Assembly: GCA_003557485.1 (NCBI GenBank) | Contig: PWOI01000020.1 | Location: forward strand, 1 to 7,475 | Length of the DNA stretch: 7,475 bases | Direction: 5' to 3' | DNA from: Elusimicrobiota bacterium | Lineage (GTDB): Bacteria; CG03; SLGR01; PWQF01 | Shown: piece after piece, positions 2 to 7,475 of the stretch | Position numbering within the stretch: position 1 is the stretch's first letter | Layout: each line of letters opens with the position of its first letter | Program-made: the position numbers and the translations under genes | The notes under the pieces: model-generated | What the model was told of the DNA's origin: nothing | Database searches by the model: none | Seen by the model: only the letters and a program-made list of their open reading frames with translations

Positions 2-1099
2 CCTGCAGGCGCTTCACTACACCTTGACATACCATTCTCTATCGAAGATCTGAAGCACGGCATTAAAAAAGCAGCAGGACTTGGCACATGTATCAGCATG
101 AGCAGCAACAGTGGACAGATCTACTTTTCTTCAAAAATAATGCGGAACTTTTACAAGGAGGCGCTTCTATATGCAAACTCCGAAGTAAATACGCTCATTC
201 TGGGCGAAACGGGAACCGGAAAAGAGATGGTGGCCAGGCTACTGCACCACTATAACAATCAACGCAGCAGCGGCCCATTTATATGCGTCAATTGCGGCGC
301 AATACCTGAAGGTCTTTTTGAAGCCGAGTTTTTTGGCTACTCTCCAGGGGCATTCACTGGTGCCTCACACAGCCACGCTGGATATTTTGAACAAGCAAAT
401 GGCGGAACAATATTTCTTGATGAAATTGGCGATCTCCCTCTGTACCAGCAGGTCAAATTACTTCGTGTCATAGAGCAACAATCCATAACTCCACTAGGGT
501 CGAGGCGCAAAATATCGCTCGACTTCAGGCTTATCACCGCCACTAATCGCGATTTATATAGCATGGTGTGCGAAGGGCAGTTTCGGCCTGACCTATATTA
601 CAGAATCGCGGTTGCTATACTTGACCTTCCCGACCTTGAAGCGAGAGGGAAAATAGAAAAATGCCAGTTATTCTCTCACCTCATGTCCTTAATTTCTAAA
701 AAAGAGGGTATACGCACTCCTGATCTCCCTGACTGGCTACTTAACGCGGTCGGCAAAAGGGTTTTCAATGGGAACATAAGGGAAATGATGAACATCGCTG
801 AACGCGTATTTTTAAAATACCGTATCGGTGGAACGTGGAGTAAAAAAGCCATCTTACCTATAATCGAAAATGAATCAGAAGCGCTAATGCCAGCAGCACA
901 CCCCTTTACCGATCATGATCTCGCCGTGGAGAAAAATGAAATACTGGATGCCTTGCAACGCAACCACTGGGTAAGGAAAAAGGCTGCCATGGACCTCGGC
1001 ATAAGCCGTAAGGTGCTATGGGAAAAAATGCATAAGCATAACTTATATAACCATCCCGACCACGTAGGAAAGCGCCCCAGGCAACGGAGGGCAAAGTGA
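2..1099 (+). CDS. Sigma-54-dependent transcriptional activator (enhancer-binding protein), 5'-partial
   Basis: Cytoplasmic AAA+ ATPase that remodels sigma-54 RNA polymerase to open promoters. The frame has no stop back to position 2. The first in-frame ATG (position 98) has no Shine-Dalgarno at normal distance, so the gene probably starts outside the window. The 32 upstream codons include GASLHLDIPFSIEDL, which resembles the end of a receiver domain, with Ile where the conserved Lys of the KPF motif should be. Numbering from the Met at 98: Walker A GETGTGKE 36-43, sigma-54-contact GAFTGA 84-89, Walker B GGTIFLDE 102-109, sensor I ATNRDL 148-153, Arg-finger region with R163 and R169, sensor II GNIREM 225-230, and a Fis-type helix-turn-helix about 277-316 (KAAMDLGISRKVLWEKM), then a basic tail. 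All activator motifs look intact. Its stop overlaps the ABC transporter start by 4 nt. The degenerate receiver suggests control other than classical phosphorylation (inference, FleQ as precedent). Family is certain; target genes are inferred. Confidence 0.93.
   Translation, partial: PAGASLHLDIPFSIEDLKHGIKKAAGLGTCISMSSNSGQIYFSSKIMRNFYKEALLYANSEVNTLILGETGTGKEMVARLLHHYNNQRSSGPFICVNCGAIPEGLFEAEFFGYSPGAFTGASHSHAGYFEQANGGTIFLDEIGDLPLYQQVKLLRVIEQQSITPLGSRRKISLDFRLITATNRDLYSMVCEGQFRPDLYYRIAVAILDLPDLEARGKIEKCQLFSHLMSLISKKEGIRTPDLPDWLLNAVGKRVFNGNIREMMNIAERVFLKYRIGGTWSKKAILPIIENESEALMPAAHPFTDHDLAVEKNEILDALQRNHWVRKKAAMDLGISRKVLWEKMHKHNLYNHPDHVGKRPRQRRAK
1086..1090 (+). promoter_or_regulatory. Ribosome binding site setting the GTG start of the ABC transporter
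   Basis: GGAGG lies inside the last codons of the regulator gene, 5 nt before the GTG at 1096. It supports a GTG start and the 4-nt GTGA overlap with the regulator stop, an arrangement that normally couples translation of the two genes. Confidence 0.75.
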
Positions 1100-3246
1100 G
1101 CGCAACAGAAGCCCAAGCTCAGGAAAAAAGCAATGCCGATGCTGAGAAATCACATTCAGCAGTTTACGCATTCTGTCTTGTATCAGCATTTCATAACTCA
1201 CCATTAGACCCTGAGCAGCTCGCAATAACGGAGGGAATCAGCAAAGAAAAAGCCGGGACAGCGGATCTTATACATCTAGCCTCAAGGCACCGCTTCAAGG
1301 CTAAGCAGGTAAATCTTGCATGGGAAGATCTTGAGCGACAAAGCTTTCCAGCAGTATTAGAGCTTAAAAATGGACAGTTCCTGGTAATTGCTCGTGTAGA
1401 ATCTGAACAAGCTGTCTTAGTTGAGCCTAGACAGGGCAAACCACTCATAGCAACGCGTGAACAGCTGGAAGAAATCTGGACCGGCAACCTGGTCTTGATG
1501 CGTCCTAAAATCGGATGGAACACGGAAAATCCACGATTTGGATTTGCCTGGTTTCTTCCAATGCTGAAGCGTTACAGGTCAAGCCTGACAGAGGTAGGCA
1601 TTGCCGCTTTTGTAATTCAGGTATTTGCGCTGGCCACGCCTCTATTCACCTTGCTCATCATTGACAAGGTTTTGGTTCATCGCTCTATTTCCACTCTTAA
1701 TGTATTAGCCGGCGCCATGCTGGCCATTCTGCTTTTCGAGGCAGTTTTGGGCATTCTGCGTGCTCAGTTAATGACACGCACAACATACCGTGTAGATGCA
1801 ACACTGGGCATGAAGGTGTATGAGCACCTTCTCAGCGTCCCATTAAGATACTTTGAACAACGCAAAGTTGGTGACACAGTTGCCAGAGTCAAGGAGATGG
1901 AAACGATACGCCAATTCCTTACTGGCTCTAGCATGATGGCAATAATTGACCTGCTTTTTGTAGGCGTATTCTTGCTTGTCATGTTTTTAATAAGTTACCA
2001 GTTAACGCTATTAGTTATAGCCATGCTTCCTCTACTGGTTGGTCTATCCATCATAACTTACCCGACCATCAGGAAGCGAATGGTCGACCGACTTGAAAAA
2101 AGTGCTGAATATCAATCATTCCTTAACGAAACCATAAGCAGCATACAGACTATAAAGTCTCTATCTGCTGAGAAGCAGATGGCAAGGCGCTGGGACTCCT
2201 TGCTTGCCAGCTATGCTACTGCATCATACAAAAGTGACTCGCTTTCCGGAATTGTCGGATCTATCGGCCAGGTGATGCAAAGGCTAATAACGCTTGCCAT
2301 TCTATGGTACGGCGTGCAGCTTGCTCTAGATGGATCAATTACAGCAGGCCAGCTAATTGCTTTCAACATGATTGCAAGCCAAGTAACCAGCCCAGTGCTA
2401 CGCATGGTACAGACCTGGCAAGGCTTGCAACAAGTTGGACTATCCATCGAAAGGCTGGGTGATTTAATGAACCCCCCTCAGGAGCCTATACTTAACACTG
2501 GGCGACAAAACCTCAAGCCATTGCAGGGCAAAGTGGAAGTGGAAAATGTTGAGTACCGCTATCGCCCGGACCTGGACCCTGTGATCAAGGGAGTCAGCTT
2601 TACCATTCAACCGGGAAGTTTTGTCGGTATCGTAGGCCGCAGTGGGTCGGGAAAAAGTACCTTGGCGAAGCTGCTTCAGCGGCTATACCTCCCCAGCTCT
2701 GGAAAAATACGTTTTGATAATATAGACCTTAACGAAGTAGACCCCCGCTGGCTAAGACGCCAGATAGGGGTAGTACCTCAAGAGGGTAGTCTTTTCGCTG
2801 GTACTGTTCGTGAAAATATTTCACTCCATCTTCCTGACGCTCCCATGAGCAGCATTGTAGCTGCTGCAAGACTTGCAGGTGCGGAAAAATTTATAGAGAA
2901 CCTCCCAGCAGGTTATGAAACACCAATTGGCGAGCGTGGCGCTATACTTTCTGGCGGACAGCGACAGCGCTTGGCTATCGCTCGCGCCCTGCTTGCAAAC
3001 CCCAGGATTTTAATATTTGACGAGGCAACTAGCGCACTTGATAAAGCTGCACAGCGAACCATTGAGGCTAGCATTCAAAAGGTCCGCCAAGGTAGAACCG
3101 TTTTCATGGTAGCTCACTCACTTGAAGCTATTCAGCATGCCGATATTGTATTAGTCATGGAAAATGGAAGGATTGTCGAGTCAGGAAGCCACAAAGAGCT
3201 CATGGAAAGAAAAGGCACTTTCTACAAACTTTTCCAGGAGGTATAG
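1096..3246 (+). CDS. HlyB-type type I secretion ABC transporter (permease/ATPase) with inactive C39-like domain
   Basis: Inner-membrane ATPase that drives one-step export of an unfolded protein through an adaptor and a TolC-like duct. Length 716 aa, close to HlyB (about 707). Order: C39-like domain about 18-135, membrane domain about 160-440 with several helices, nucleotide-binding domain about 478-716. Visible motifs: Walker A GRSGSGKST 514-522, Q-loop Q562, signature LSGGQ 618-622, Walker B RILIFDE 637-643 with catalytic E643, D-loop SALD 646-649, H-loop H674. Many stretches match HlyB as I remember it (IDKVLVHR, YFEQRKVGDTVARV, IGQVMQ, GQLIAFNM). The N-terminal domain lacks the peptidase Cys and His: aligned from memory to HlyB, Ser21 and Gln94 occupy those places. 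It therefore should not cleave double-glycine leaders and more likely docks cargo. The start is GTG with GGAGG 5 nt upstream; the next gene begins 2 nt after the stop. LapB-like transporters are the nearest alternative family; overall likeness favours the HlyB group. Confidence 0.97.
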   Translation: MSATEAQAQEKSNADAEKSHSAVYAFCLVSAFHNSPLDPEQLAITEGISKEKAGTADLIHLASRHRFKAKQVNLAWEDLERQSFPAVLELKNGQFLVIARVESEQAVLVEPRQGKPLIATREQLEEIWTGNLVLMRPKIGWNTENPRFGFAWFLPMLKRYRSSLTEVGIAAFVIQVFALATPLFTLLIIDKVLVHRSISTLNVLAGAMLAILLFEAVLGILRAQLMTRTTYRVDATLGMKVYEHLLSVPLRYFEQRKVGDTVARVKEMETIRQFLTGSSMMAIIDLLFVGVFLLVMFLISYQLTLLVIAMLPLLVGLSIITYPTIRKRMVDRLEKSAEYQSFLNETISSIQTIKSLSAEKQMARRWDSLLASYATASYKSDSLSGIVGSIGQVMQRLITLAILWYGVQLALDGSITAGQLIAFNMIASQVTSPVLRMVQTWQGLQQVGLSIERLGDLMNPPQEPILNTGRQNLKPLQGKVEVENVEYRYRPDLDPVIKGVSFTIQPGSFVGIVGRSGSGKSTLAKLLQRLYLPSSGKIRFDNIDLNEVDPRWLRRQIGVVPQEGSLFAGTVRENISLHLPDAPMSSIVAAARLAGAEKFIENLPAGYETPIGERGAILSGGQRQRLAIARALLANPRILIFDEATSALDKAAQRTIEASIQKVRQGRTVFMVAHSLEAIQHADIVLVMENGRIVESGSHKELMERKGTFYKLFQEV
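3236..3241 (+). promoter_or_regulatory. Ribosome binding site setting the GTG start of the adaptor gene
   Basis: A perfect AGGAGG inside the final codons of the ABC gene sits 7 nt before the GTG at 3249. It favours this GTG over the in-frame ATG at 3261 and shows tight coupling to the ABC gene. Confidence 0.8.
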
Positions 3247-3248
3247 CT

Positions 3249-4634
3249 GTGGCCAAAATCATGAGAAAACTATCTCGCGTGGTTAGCCGCTTGACTTCTC
3301 GTTACAGCGAGACAAAAAAGCAGCGCAGGACAGATAGGCTTAAAAAGCTTGAGCAAGAGTTTCTTGATCCGCTCAGGTCAATTCAAGAAACTGAGCCTCC
3401 GGCCGGAAGGAGACGTGTACTATGGGCACTACTGGCTTTACTGCTGTGTGCGCTCATTTGGTCTTGGTTTGCACGCATTGATGTCGTGGCCACTGCCAAT
3501 GGTCGATTTATACCTGACGGCCGTAATAAAGTAGTGCAAAGCATGGAGCTTAGCGCTGTAGAAGAGGTCTTGGTCGAAGTAGGGCAACGCGTGGAGTCCG
3601 GTCAACTGCTGGCCAAACTGGATGAAACACTGGCCGCAGCAAGCAATGAGTCCATTGAAAAGGCTGCAAGACTCAATATGGCTCGACGGCACAGACTACA
3701 AAGCACCCTGAGCGGCACCGCGCACAATATCCATCAATCAGACGAGATACATAAACTCAACGATGATATATGGAAAACAGAGAAAGCAAGGCATTCAAGT
3801 GTCCGCAAGTCAATGAACGCCAACATTCGTGAAGTGCAAGCAGAGCTACGATCACATGAATCACGACTTCGGCGGCAAATTGAGCGCCAAGAGCTGGTTA
3901 GGCAGAGGACAGAAAGCGCTAGCCGCTTAGCAGAAATTGGCGCTATAGCTAGAAACGACTACATAATGCTCCGTGAAGAAAGTATTTTACTACAAAGTGA
4001 TATCGACTCGTCTCGAGAAAAAATACAAATTCTTGAAGAACGCTTGGTCAACGCAACTGAAGCACTGGAACAGATTGAAGCGGAGCGACGACTCGATCTC
4101 CTTGCCAGCTTAGAAAGCACTATGAGTGAGTCATACCAGCTAACTGAGCAGCAATCTCATATCGTACATTCCTTGGAGAGCAGAAGCCTTCACGCCCCCG
4201 TTTCGGGTACCGTGAAGTCCATAAATGTTTCAACACCAGGAGAGGTTGTTACAGCTGGGTCCAGCATTATCGAAATTGTCCCTGACGAAGCGCCCCTTCT
4301 TGTTGAGCTGGATCTTTCGGATAGAGATTCCGGATTTGTAGAAGTAGGTCAGCGGGTAGAAATAAAAGTTGAAGCTTTTCCATTCACTCAATATGGCGTA
4401 TTGCCTGGCAAGCTAGTTTGGGTTAGCGCAGATGCACAGACCACCGGCAAGGAAGGCTACTACCGAGCCTGGGTTGAGCCTGACAAGCGCTATCTTGAGA
4501 GAGGTAACCAACGCGTCTCAGTGCGTCCTGGCATGACTGCATCAGTTGATGTCAACACAGGCGAAAGAAGAGTGCTTGAGTTTTTTCTTTCCCCTCTTTC
4601 ACGCAACATCAGCGAGGGCCTTAGCGTGAGATGA
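3249..4634 (+). CDS. HlyD-family type I secretion periplasmic adaptor (membrane fusion protein)
   Basis: Periplasmic bridge between the inner-membrane ABC transporter and the outer-membrane TolC-like channel. Length 461 aa (HlyD 478). Residues 1-56 form a strongly basic cytoplasmic segment, comparable to the HlyD N-terminus that takes part in substrate recognition. One membrane helix lies at about 57-75 (VLWALLALLLCALIWSWF). The first lipoyl half-motif follows at about 83-125 (GRFIPDGRNKVVQ ... VEVGQRVESGQLLAKLD), then a long charged coiled-coil hairpin about 130-305, the second lipoyl half at about 311-345 (SLHAPVSGTV), and a beta-barrel region about 350-440 with the family stretch IKVEAFPFTQYG at 372-383. 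The C-terminus LSPLSRNISEGLSVR strongly resembles that of HlyD. No truncation is seen. It lies 2 nt behind the ABC gene, so the two should be made together. Identification is firm; which cargo it carries is inferred from context. Confidence 0.96.
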   Translation: MAKIMRKLSRVVSRLTSRYSETKKQRRTDRLKKLEQEFLDPLRSIQETEPPAGRRRVLWALLALLLCALIWSWFARIDVVATANGRFIPDGRNKVVQSMELSAVEEVLVEVGQRVESGQLLAKLDETLAAASNESIEKAARLNMARRHRLQSTLSGTAHNIHQSDEIHKLNDDIWKTEKARHSSVRKSMNANIREVQAELRSHESRLRRQIERQELVRQRTESASRLAEIGAIARNDYIMLREESILLQSDIDSSREKIQILEERLVNATEALEQIEAERRLDLLASLESTMSESYQLTEQQSHIVHSLESRSLHAPVSGTVKSINVSTPGEVVTAGSSIIEIVPDEAPLLVELDLSDRDSGFVEVGQRVEIKVEAFPFTQYGVLPGKLVWVSADAQTTGKEGYYRAWVEPDKRYLERGNQRVSVRPGMTASVDVNTGERRVLEFFLSPLSRNISEGLSVR

Positions 4635-4784: not shown

Positions 4785-4801
4785 TAGGCATAGCTGTTGC
4801 C
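4785..4801 (+). promoter_or_regulatory. Candidate sigma-54 (-24/-12) promoter for the putative cargo gene
   Basis: TAGGCATAGCTGTTGCC carries GG (4787-4788) and GC (4799-4800) separated by exactly 10 bp, with the CA after GG and the TT before GC also matching the TGGCAC-N5-TTGC consensus. Mismatches are A for T before GG, T and A for the following C and G, and C after TTGC. Predicted start is about 4812, leaving a leader of about 97 nt to the ATG at 4909. The sigma-54 activator encoded upstream gives it context. It is the only + strand GG-N10-GC arrangement I found in the gap. Confidence 0.5.
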
Positions 4802-4894: not shown

Positions 4895-4900
4895 AGGAGA
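4895..4900 (+). promoter_or_regulatory. Ribosome binding site of the putative cargo gene
   Basis: AGGAGA lies 8 nt before the ATG at 4909 in an A/T-rich unstructured stretch, as expected for strong translation. It fixes the start of the 196-residue protein. Confidence 0.75.
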
Positions 4901-4908
4901 AATAGAAC

Positions 4909-5499
4909 ATGGCACTTCTCGGTGGTCTTCTTAATCTTGACGGTCTGCTTGGCGGCCTGCTTGGCAGCAGTAATGGCCAAGGCACCAGCGAAGTTGTTAA
5001 CGTCAGCAACGCCGCGGCGCTTAACACAGAGGGCCTGGTCGATAGCATGATCGGTGGCATGGATAGCCTGATCAACACCACGCTTGACACCACCTTCAAC
5101 GGCGTACACAGCTTGGTAGAAAGCACTGTCGCCAGCAGCGCCTGTGCAATGAACTCCGTTGCAGAGAGCGCCATTGCCTTTACCGAGCAGAGCGCTACCA
5201 AGGTTTTTGACGGCAATGGAAACCTGATTTCTGAAAGCGCCACTCTTAGCACAGCCCCCGGCGCTGAGATCATGCAAACTTACGCTGCTGAAACCCTCGG
5301 TCCGCTGACTGCCGGCGTGGGCAACGGCATCGACGGCATGCTGAGCGGCGTAGGCGAAGGGGCCGGCCAGGCCATGGCCAACCTCGGCAGTGGCGTTCCG
5401 GAAATGCTGCCGGGTACCACGTCAGCACTGGGTGCCGATATCGTCGCTGCCTCTGACAGCGGTGGTCTGGTGACCAACCTGCTGGACGTTCTGATCTAA
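4909..5499 (+). CDS. Small acidic glycine-rich protein, putative type I secretion cargo (unrecognised)
   Basis: I do not recognise this 196-residue protein. It has 19 Asp/Glu, one Lys (K97), no Arg and one Cys (C79), so it is extremely acidic. There is no Sec signal peptide: the hydrophobic N-terminus lacks any basic residue and contains D11. That N-terminus is built from LLGGLL units (3-8 and 13-18). Residues 42-90 read as amphipathic helix with regular small/hydrophobic spacing. Residues 130-165 are Gly-rich (GVGNGIDGMLSGVGEGAG) but have no RTX nonapeptides. The C-terminus, GGLVTNLLDVLI, ends in Asp plus three hydrophobic residues, as in several type I substrates. It follows the ABC and adaptor genes, has its own ribosome site and promoter candidate, and is closed by a strong terminator, which together suggest an abundant dedicated cargo. 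It is markedly GC-richer than its neighbours. Activity (surface protein, bacteriocin or other) cannot be read from the sequence. Confidence 0.9.
   Translation: MALLGGLLNLDGLLGGLLGSSNGQGTSEVVNVSNAAALNTEGLVDSMIGGMDSLINTTLDTTFNGVHSLVESTVASSACAMNSVAESAIAFTEQSATKVFDGNGNLISESATLSTAPGAEIMQTYAAETLGPLTAGVGNGIDGMLSGVGEGAGQAMANLGSGVPEMLPGTTSALGADIVAASDSGGLVTNLLDVLI
4945..4968 (+). repeat. Tandem 12-bp repeat encoding LLGG-LLGS
   Basis: CTGCTTGGCGGC is followed at once by CTGCTTGGCAGC (11 of 12 identical). It lies in the Leu/Gly-rich start of the putative cargo gene and suggests growth of this segment by small duplication. Confidence 0.6.
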
Positions 5500-5514
5500 G
5501 TACGTCGAGATAGT

Positions 5515-5549
5515 GGGGCTCTCTCTAGTCGCGGGGGAGCCCCGTTTTT
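5515..5549 (+). terminator. Strong rho-independent terminator after the putative cargo gene
   Basis: An 11-bp stem pairs GGGGCTCTCTC (5515-5525) with GGGGGAGCCCC (5533-5543), using G-T pairs near the loop. The loop is 7 nt, and G then five T follow. It starts 16 nt after the cargo stop. On the - strand no T-run follows the stem, so it is at best a weak stop for the converging TolC-like gene, which ends at 5556. Confidence 0.9.
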
Positions 5550-5555
5550 AAAAAA

Positions 5556-6965
5556 TTATTCAGTTTCCATCATCTTGCGGAATTGCTGTGGTAGCACAGT
5601 GGCTAGCACTGCCCAGCCTGACATTCTGACGGCTAGCTCCTGACGCTTCTGCTGCGCGACTCGTCTGACCCACTCAGCTTCCAGCTTAACTGCCTCCATG
5701 TTGCTACCAAAACCATGCCTGGCTTTGGCGCGATGCAATTCCATAGCTTCCCGAGCGCTTGCTTCAGATTTTTTTATAATTTCTAGCTCCTGGCGGTTTG
5801 AACGCAAATCACTCAAGGCCTCTTGAGCCAAGTCGAGAAGCTCATGCTGTAACTCATCATACCGTAACTGTGCCAAACGCAGTGCTGATCTCGATGAATC
5901 GATGTTTGCTCGTTCCGATGTAAAGGGTCCCAAAGTCTGATTCAAAGAAAGCCCAATGGTGAAATTGTCTCTCCCCATATCATCTATAGCATCCATAGCG
6001 TTCTGTGAATCAACTCCAATAAAGGAGTAGTTTGCAACAAGAGATATTTTGGGAAGTATGGCACCCCGCGAAGATTCTAGTTTTCGGTGCGCAGAATCAA
6101 TGCGATTTTTTGCTGCTTTAAGTGATGGATGCTCTGTAATGTGAGCTTGAGGTTCAACAAGATGCATTACCGGAGGTGCAGGTATAGTGCCCGCATCGGT
6201 ATGTAGGTTGCTCCCTATTGCTTGGCGGATGCCAAGATGGCGTAGCAGTCGAGCTGATATATGCTGTCTATGTGTCTGGTTCTCCAGGATTTCCGACTGA
6301 GTGTCAAGCCAATCTGATTCTGCTGCTTGTACTGCAGTCTTGGCCAGCCGGCCTTCAGCGAAGCCCTTCTGGGCTAGTGAGAGTCTTTTTTTGAAAAGGG
6401 CAGCCCGGTGTTTGCTGGCTTGTGTAGAAAGCTCGGCACTGGCCAAGTCGACATATAGCTTTAATGCTTGCAGGTACTCGTTGGTTAAAACCGCTTCTAG
6501 CTCTGCTTCGCTGGCGGCAAGCTCTGAAGCTGCAGCGCGCAAACCAGCCTGATGCTGCCCACCACTGAATAGACTAAGTTCAGCAGAGAGCGCAGCATAG
6601 CTGTTGTAGAAGCTCTCACTGGCATCAACGACGCTGCCGCCAATAATGGTGCTTCCACTGCCGGAGTAGTTCTGCGATCGGAGAGTTTGTAATGATAGAT
6701 CCAGTTGTGGGAGGAAAGCCCCTCTTGCTTGATTTTTTTGAGACTCCGCCTGAAGGGCTATTTCCCTTTGCTTCAGCATTGCTGGGGTACTGGATGCAAC
6801 CTGCTTAAGCACTTGCTGCAGTGTCATGCGGTGAGCTGATTGTTCCTGTTTTTGCAGTGAGCGCTCTGAGCTAGTGCTTATCGAGTTGGCTACGGCTGGG
6901 GCTGAGAGCAGCTGCGAAAGCGCAAGCAATATGACCGTAAACCTTGGCTTGATGCCTTGTTTCAT
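5556..6965 (-). CDS. TolC-family outer-membrane channel of the type I secretion system
   Basis: Outer-membrane and periplasmic duct that completes the exporter formed with the ABC protein and adaptor. Length 469 aa. A Sec signal peptide is clear: basic start (K2, K6, R8), hydrophobic core 10-21, likely cleavage after AVA at residue 26. The two-fold repeat of the family is visible. The first half has QARGAFLPQLDLSL at about 79-92, and the second has HPSLKAAKNRIDSAHRKLESSRGAILPKISL, beginning at 279. Each is followed by strand-like segments (YAALSAELSLFSGG; FTIGLSLNQTLGPF) and long helices. The start ATG overlaps the stop of the upstream 160-residue gene (ATGA); only a weak GGA lies about 12 nt upstream, so translation probably depends on coupling. 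It is transcribed towards the cargo gene on the opposite strand. Locus context suggests a dedicated channel of the AggA/LapE/CyaE kind rather than the housekeeping TolC (inference). Confidence 0.95.
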   Translation of the reverse strand: MKQGIKPRFTVILLALSQLLSAPAVANSISTSSERSLQKQEQSAHRMTLQQVLKQVASSTPAMLKQREIALQAESQKNQARGAFLPQLDLSLQTLRSQNYSGSGSTIIGGSVVDASESFYNSYAALSAELSLFSGGQHQAGLRAAASELAASEAELEAVLTNEYLQALKLYVDLASAELSTQASKHRAALFKKRLSLAQKGFAEGRLAKTAVQAAESDWLDTQSEILENQTHRQHISARLLRHLGIRQAIGSNLHTDAGTIPAPPVMHLVEPQAHITEHPSLKAAKNRIDSAHRKLESSRGAILPKISLVANYSFIGVDSQNAMDAIDDMGRDNFTIGLSLNQTLGPFTSERANIDSSRSALRLAQLRYDELQHELLDLAQEALSDLRSNRQELEIIKKSEASAREAMELHRAKARHGFGSNMEAVKLEAEWVRRVAQQKRQELAVRMSGWAVLATVLPQQFRKMMETE

Positions 6966-7444
6966 ACGAGCGAAGTGTCCAAGTCCGCAGGGCTGGCCAT
7001 TTCCAACAATGAAAGAGTCTGCAGAGGTACCTGATTGGCAAAAGAGGGCATCTCGGCAGCAATCATACTGCCTGCGTCGTGGAGTAGCATTTCGATTTCA
7101 TTTGCAGATTGGCTTGCTTCAAGGTTGATGCGATTTTCCAGGCCATGGTTAATACGATCGATGGCAGCATCGTGATGGAATCGCTCTTCGATAACTACGC
7201 CGCCATCTTCTTGTGGTGTGATGTTTTTTTCCAAGACACCCTGATTCATATTTGAGCCGAGCAAAGAGTGTAAGGAAACAGCGCTGCTTAAAATGCCTCC
7301 TAAGCCAATAAGGCTAGCTTCCATAAAGGTTTCACTAATGTCCTGATTGAACTGCATGGCCATGCGATCAATGCTGGCATTGATAGTCTGGTTTGTTAGT
7401 GAGGCTAGGCTGTTGCTAAAATCATGTGGAAGTAGGTTTGACAT
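6962..7444 (-). CDS. Small acidic protein of unknown function coupled to the TolC-like gene
   Basis: Unrecognised 160-residue protein with 21 Asp/Glu against 5 Lys/Arg and no Cys. No signal peptide or clear membrane segment is seen; the most hydrophobic stretch is at about 43-62 (SLIGLGGILSSAVSLHSLLG). The first 60 residues look amphipathic and rich in Ser, Asn and Leu; residues 70-130 are charged and helical in character. The C-terminus, PADLDTSLV, is hydrophobic at the very end. A strong ribosome site (TGAGGAG, minus strand of 7450-7456) sits 5 nt before the ATG, and the stop overlaps the TolC-like start by 4 nt, so this is a real gene co-made with the channel. It could be a second cargo, a cargo chaperone or an accessory factor; the acidity and lack of Sec signal resemble the 196-residue protein, and a short stretch (residues 15-28) reads like residues 53-66 of it. 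None of these roles is established. Its promoter lies beyond the right edge. Confidence 0.8.
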   Translation of the reverse strand: MSNLLPHDFSNSLASLTNQTINASIDRMAMQFNQDISETFMEASLIGLGGILSSAVSLHSLLGSNMNQGVLEKNITPQEDGGVVIEERFHHDAAIDRINHGLENRINLEASQSANEIEMLLHDAGSMIAAEMPSFANQVPLQTLSLLEMASPADLDTSLV

Positions 7445-7449
7445 GATAG

Positions 7450-7456
7450 CTCCTCA
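7450..7456 (-). promoter_or_regulatory. Ribosome binding site of the 160-residue protein gene
   Basis: The minus strand reads TGAGGAG here, 5 nt before the ATG that ends at 7444. It fixes the start. The remaining 19 bases to the right edge hold no promoter I can recognise. Confidence 0.7.
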
Positions 7457-7475
7457 GGTAGGAAAAACTGGTCGG

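Follow-up and report, generated by a model that had tools for sequence, protein, structure and literature searches.

The window, that is, the whole stretch of DNA analysed here, comprises the first 7,475 nucleotides of contig PWOI01000020.1 from an Elusimicrobiota MAG. It contains the following features, among them a small acidic protein referred to here as P0001:

2–1,099, forward strand: sigma-54 activator (AAA+ and Fis-type HTH), 5′-truncated by the contig end; it adjoins the exporter in Halomonas sp. Y3 too
1,096–3,246, forward strand: HlyB-class ABC exporter, 716 aa, with a C39-like N-terminal domain; Walker A, signature and Walker B present
3,249–4,634, forward strand: HlyD-class adaptor, 461 aa (TIGR01843)
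4,786–4,801, forward strand: weak, possible −24/−12 site AGGCATAGCTGTTGCC that the Y3 orthologue of P0001 does not share
4,895–4,899, forward strand: ribosome binding site AGGAG, 9 nt 5′ of the P0001 ATG, kept in Y3 as CCAGGAGAAATAAAACATG
4,909–5,499, forward strand: P0001, 196 aa, acidic, Lys/Arg-poor and Gly/Leu-rich; proposed major small cargo
5,008–7,475, reverse strand: segment inverted relative to Y3, aligning to 11,049–8,567 of the Y3 locus sequence (L002) on the opposite strand
about 5,514–5,549, forward strand: intrinsic terminator 3′ of P0001, between the convergent P0001 and tolC
5,556–6,965, reverse strand: outer-membrane channel gene, OEP/TolC-like (Pfam OEP, TIGR01844), called tolC below
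6,962–7,444, reverse strand: P0002, 160 aa, acidic, pI 4.3, ending DLDTSLV, most likely a paralogue of P0001; its stop and the tolC start overlap by 4 nt (ATGA)

The ABC exporter scored 808 bits against TIGR01846 (cut-off 725) and the adaptor 326 bits against TIGR01843 (cut-off 209); the tolC-like gene reached 135 bits with Pfam OEP (cut-off 22) and 100 bits with the TolC-specific TIGR01844, which is below the cut-off of 225. An HlyB-class ABC protein, an HlyD-class adaptor and a TolC-class channel thus occur together in the window and make up a type I secretion system, as an earlier reading of the sequence only had supposed. That reading placed P0001 straight after the exporter genes: hlyB and hlyD do lie 5′ of it, but a gap of 274 nt separates it from the adaptor gene.

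The N-terminal domain of the exporter, whose nearest solved relative is the C39-like domain of HlyB (3zua), has no Cys at the aligned catalytic position and carries Gln in place of His. Microcins and class II bacteriocins with C39 exporters resemble the present arrangement in that a small protein and an ABC exporter whose N-terminus bears a C39-type domain are encoded side by side, and GG pairs occur near the P0001 N-terminus; in the window exporter, however, the catalytic Cys and His are lost, so double-glycine leader cleavage is not expected, and a double-glycine bacteriocin, which goes with an active C39 Cys/His, was rejected as a candidate. The domain (window 1,096–1,530) also lacks the Trp/His pair reported from its HlyB counterpart (PMC8277102), and recognition of cargo may differ.

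The coordinates, strand and length of P0001 are as first read, and so is its charge: 19 acidic residues (10 Glu and 9 Asp), one Lys and no Arg. The protein has a mass of 19 kDa, a pI of 4.05, a GRAVY of +0.44 and a single Cys that is missing from its relatives, and its C-terminal half is Gly-rich, as described before (18 Gly, against 12 in the first half). Lys and Arg together make up 0.5% of residues; since the 147 background ORFs called mechanically for comparison, 117 of this MAG and 30 of the Halomonas Y3 flanks, had 2.8% as their lowest value, this depletion is not a matter of chance. Judged by eye, P0001 has no basic n-region and no signal peptide, which agrees with the absence of a Sec signal claimed earlier, and RTX nonapeptide repeats (GGxGxDxUx) were likewise not found, there being no GGxGxD in the sequence and no Pfam match. 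Searches of Pfam, NCBIfam, PHROGs and the PDB returned nothing usable for P0001 or P0002. Within Pfam, P0001 had no BapA_N, Ig-like or Asp-Ala repeat match that would mark a BapA-type adhesin, and neither protein had a Ra/CHDL match of the Rap family above the cut-off. The structure model of P0001 is weak (pLDDT 59, with the tail under 50), and Foldseek gave no significant fold match.

Both expression signals described as strong in the sequence-only reading hold up. The AGGAG site is conserved in Y3, and the terminator consists of a −21.9 kcal/mol stem followed by TTTTT (z −3.1); Y3 has a hairpin in the corresponding position. The possible sigma-54 site upstream of P0001 was not relied on, because it is not kept at the Y3 orthologue.

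The Halomonas Y3 locus and a family of small acidic proteins

Scanning 84,980 species genomes with a pattern brought up a single genome with close relatives of P0001, Halomonas sp. Y3, where they occur as two copies (87% and 78% identity). No other match was obtained in 275 genomes of the Halomonas family and no credible one in 369 genomes of the Halomonas class, where those weak profile matches that were readable proved to be DprA (twice), MurB, an ABC permease or other frames. Only eight genomes of the searched set belong to the window's own class, and none besides this MAG had P0001; viral contigs and plasmids held no family member, and the plasmid search for the window tolC came back empty. 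Comparison of P0001 with its Y3 orthologue gave a dN/dS of 0.14, indicating a protein under purifying selection.

The gene order in Y3 is adhesin 1, sigma-54 activator, hlyB, hlyD, P0001a, P0002, tolC, P0001b (218 aa, on the opposite strand) and adhesin 2, with protein identities to the window of 94% for hlyB, 84% for hlyD, 87% for P0001a, 72% for P0002, 78% for tolC and 78% for P0001b. The adhesin genes flank the exporter (L002 1–2,540 and 11,868–16,513) and encode proteins of about 1,100 and 2,400 residues with similar N-termini and hundreds of Asp-Ala dipeptides in long repeats; adhesin 2 matches Pfam BapA_N. They resemble BapA of Paracoccus denitrificans, whose gene adjoins those of its type I system and which biofilm requires (PMC5588039). 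Because the near-identical exporter stands between two BapA-type adhesins in Y3, an arrangement like that of Paracoccus bapA-bapBCD, the giant adhesins are its likely main cargo. The system is therefore probably an adhesin exporter, not the exporter dedicated to P0001 that the sequence-only reading had proposed. In the window's MAG, which is fragmented, no adhesin gene was detected by C-terminal homology, BapA_N or the Asp-Ala DNA pattern.

The Paracoccus BapA/BapBCD system, as described, is alike in that genes for a type I ABC protein, an adaptor and an outer-membrane channel neighbour a giant acidic adhesin with Asp-Ala repeats; Y3 has two such adhesins, with BapA-type N-termini. It differs in that PMC5588039, as far as consulted, mentions no small acidic paralogues; the loci described here include two or three genes for small proteins, of which two form an inverted repeat, and a gene for a sigma-54 activator. 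A near-consensus sigma-54 site, TGGCATGAAGCTTGCT, lies in Y3 95 nt before P0001b (L002 11,309, reverse strand) and is the best in 52 kb of Y3; the sigma-54 activator gene is part of the same locus.

The sequence-only reading had missed P0002, which belongs to the same family as P0001. A P0002 profile retrieved a third protein, P0003, from another genome of the Halomonas class (E 7e-6), where the next gene downstream shares 34% identity with the window tolC over 419 aa. P0003 scores 32.0 bits with P0001 and 37.0 bits with P0002; the highest scores among 1000 global and 1000 local shuffles were 24.6 and 26.9. Profile-profile alignment gave an E value of 7e-5 over 136 columns. Low-confidence models of both proteins show a long helix, a beta-hairpin and a second long helix. 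Since P0003 bridges the two, P0001 and P0002 are most likely diverged paralogues, and a new family, whose members are small, acidic and free of RTX repeats, unites the three proteins. P0003 ends PSLS and may be cut by its contig end; in the part of its genome covered, the exporter was not found, twenty more contigs giving only weak ATP-binding-domain matches. All known family proteins (6/6, from three loci only) adjoin type I genes or a related tolC, so homologues do not lie mostly away from exporters, the pattern that would speak against an exported product.

Two small paralogues, predicted helical and with hydrophobic segments, beside an exporter would also suit a secreted antibacterial or pore-forming two-protein system. 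We consider this highly unlikely, as the exporter is without the active C39 peptidase of the double-glycine bacteriocin kind, no toxin family matched, no immunity-like gene was seen, and in Y3 the locus is shared with adhesins.

Inverted segment and provenance of the contig

P0001a and P0001b of Y3 make up the two arms of an inverted repeat of 540 nt that is 89% complementary. These arms, at L002 7,977–8,516 and 10,558–11,097, include a stretch of 120 identical columns, lie 2041 nt apart and enclose P0002 and tolC. Alignment of the window to Y3 keeps a single orientation up to the end of P0001, and a second alignment, in the reverse orientation, starts inside P0001 and continues to the contig end. 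The hairpin that follows P0001 in the window looks like the one that follows P0001b in Y3. Together, the alignment orientation and the P0001b-like hairpin indicate that P0002-tolC stands the other way round from its Y3 counterpart, the exchange point falling within P0001. Under this model, a second P0001 copy is expected just past position 7,475; the MAG assembly holds one copy and not a second.

The GC content of the window is 48.6%, against 41–51% in ten other contigs of the MAG, with a weaker tetranucleotide correlation. The exporter core of Y3 (chromosome about 378,000–388,000) has about 50% GC within a chromosome of 65–70% GC, which makes it a likely horizontally acquired island there. 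Given an HlyB 94% identical to that of a Halomonas and the weak compositional fit, the contig either has been misbinned or represents an island that moved horizontally. It is a substantial possibility, if somewhat short of an even one, that the contig is misbinned, that the inverted arrangement arose when the assembly was joined through repeated copies of P0001 and not from a real inversion, or both. The compositional figures favour this, as does the closeness of HlyB to Halomonas even though the MAG's class comprises only eight genomes in the searched set; so do the single P0001 copy in the MAG and the fact that repeats can confuse short-read assembly. Against it, all genes of the contig are intact save the one cut at the contig end, and the island is compositionally foreign in Y3 as well, so that horizontal movement explains the identity without misbinning. 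Either origin is compatible with P0001 being a cargo protein. Another contig of the same MAG (L027) carries a c-di-GMP-I riboswitch (77.9 bits, positions 6,423–6,510, reverse strand).

Expression and proposed export of P0001

The three P0001 genes have ENC values of 43.9, 43.1 and 38.5 with a GC3 of 0.66–0.70, against 51.6–58.2 and 0.44–0.52 in their neighbours, including P0002, and the dS of P0001 is 0.48 against 1.0–1.4 for the neighbours. In Y3, a strong hairpin (−28 kcal/mol) separates P0001a from P0002-tolC. Codon bias, low dS, the strong ribosome site and terminator and the Y3 hairpin together suggest that production of P0001 far exceeds that of P0002 and the exporter, and the protein is probably highly abundant. 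Gene conversion between copies could also have lowered the dS of P0001; it would not explain the codon bias, which therefore stands as a separate sign. These features also bear on whether P0001 is a spurious ORF or the decayed, functionless tail of an adhesin gene, as the want of any Pfam, NCBIfam or PDB match might hint: with a dN/dS of 0.14, a conserved ribosome binding site, codon bias and a second copy in Y3, that explanation is hardly credible.

Type I substrates have been reported to carry [FLI][VAI] at their last two positions (PMC8861453). P0001 ends LI and P0002 ends LV (FV in Y3), both within this pattern, which only 2 of the 147 background ORFs fit; P0003, ending LS, falls outside it. 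P0001 thus bears the statistical markers of an uncleaved type I substrate (the terminal pattern and Lys/Arg poverty), which are not proof of export. Its DVLI end had been likened to the tails of secreted proteases. The hydrophobic end is conserved, but the residue four from the end is Asp in the window and Asn in both Halomonas copies (NVLI), so only the hydrophobic part is conserved and the argument from an acidic protease-type tail was dropped. Nor is a terminal motif common to P0001 and the adhesins, since the latter end HG and YG in Y3.

Taken together, the location, the absence of a visible signal peptide, the depletion of Lys and Arg and the [FLI][VAI] ends make it plausible, at a probability of roughly 0.5, that P0001 is a cargo of the adjacent type I exporter. 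Counting against this reading, the tail Asp is not conserved, P0003 lies outside the end pattern, no end is shared with the adhesins, the structure model is weak and the window's fragmented MAG yielded no adhesin gene; moreover, exporters with a C39-like domain have been reported with RTX cargo above 50 kDa (PMC8277102), and P0001 is a non-RTX protein of 19 kDa.

Alternatively, P0001 and P0002 might be accessory parts of the exporter, such as a cytoplasmic chaperone, a pseudo-substrate or a channel-gating factor, that help the giant acidic adhesins through HlyBD-TolC. The family always adjoins an exporter or a related tolC, the overlap of the P0002 frame with tolC suggests translational coupling, and such small cargo is not known for HlyB-type exporters (PMC8277102). 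We nevertheless regard an accessory role as somewhat unlikely, because codon bias far above that of the exporter genes suggests more product than an accessory needs, and because the near absence of Lys and Arg and the [FLI][VAI] ends are rare among background ORFs.

Small proteins secreted by other type I systems offer partial parallels to the proposed export of P0001. HasA, a hemophore, has a size of about 19 kDa. Like the putative cargo P0001, it is small, free of RTX repeats and uncleaved, and it leaves by a type I system with HasD (PMC8277102); unlike the window exporter, HasD is without a C39-like domain, and no PDB chain resembles P0001 in sequence. The Rap proteins of Rhizobium, secreted through the type I system PrsDE, are also small (about 30 kDa) and have a role in the biofilm matrix (PMC9298526), but they have Ra/CHDL beta domains, whereas P0001 has no Pfam match and is predicted to be mostly helical.

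From the genes, family membership, exporter, adhesin linkage in Y3, codon bias, selection and composition observed here, we infer a model of export, high expression, a matrix role and major and minor roles for the two paralogues. P0001 would be the abundant major member of the family, exported uncleaved by a C-terminal signal through the adjacent HlyB-HlyD-TolC system, which most likely secretes giant BapA-type adhesins too. It would be laid down with these adhesins as a small matrix or surface-coat component, and P0002, with its frame overlapping tolC, would be the minor paralogue. In its fullest form, in which the C39-like-domain system exports P0001 as major and P0002 as minor subunit along with the Asp-Ala adhesins, and the two P0001 genes bound an invertible segment that swaps the promoter of P0002-tolC, the model is doubtful and should be taken as speculative.

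The small-protein family is new, and the adhesin exporter to which it is attached is of a known kind. If P0001 is cargo, a degenerate C39-like HlyB-class exporter would carry a 19-kDa non-RTX protein, against the published correlation (PMC8277102), and the two genes provide a compact means of testing what constitutes the C-terminal signal in type I substrates. Adhesin exporters of the BapA kind would then be able to deposit, besides the adhesin, another surface protein that is small and possibly more abundant, and P0001 may be an additional, small component from which the bacterial surface layer is built.
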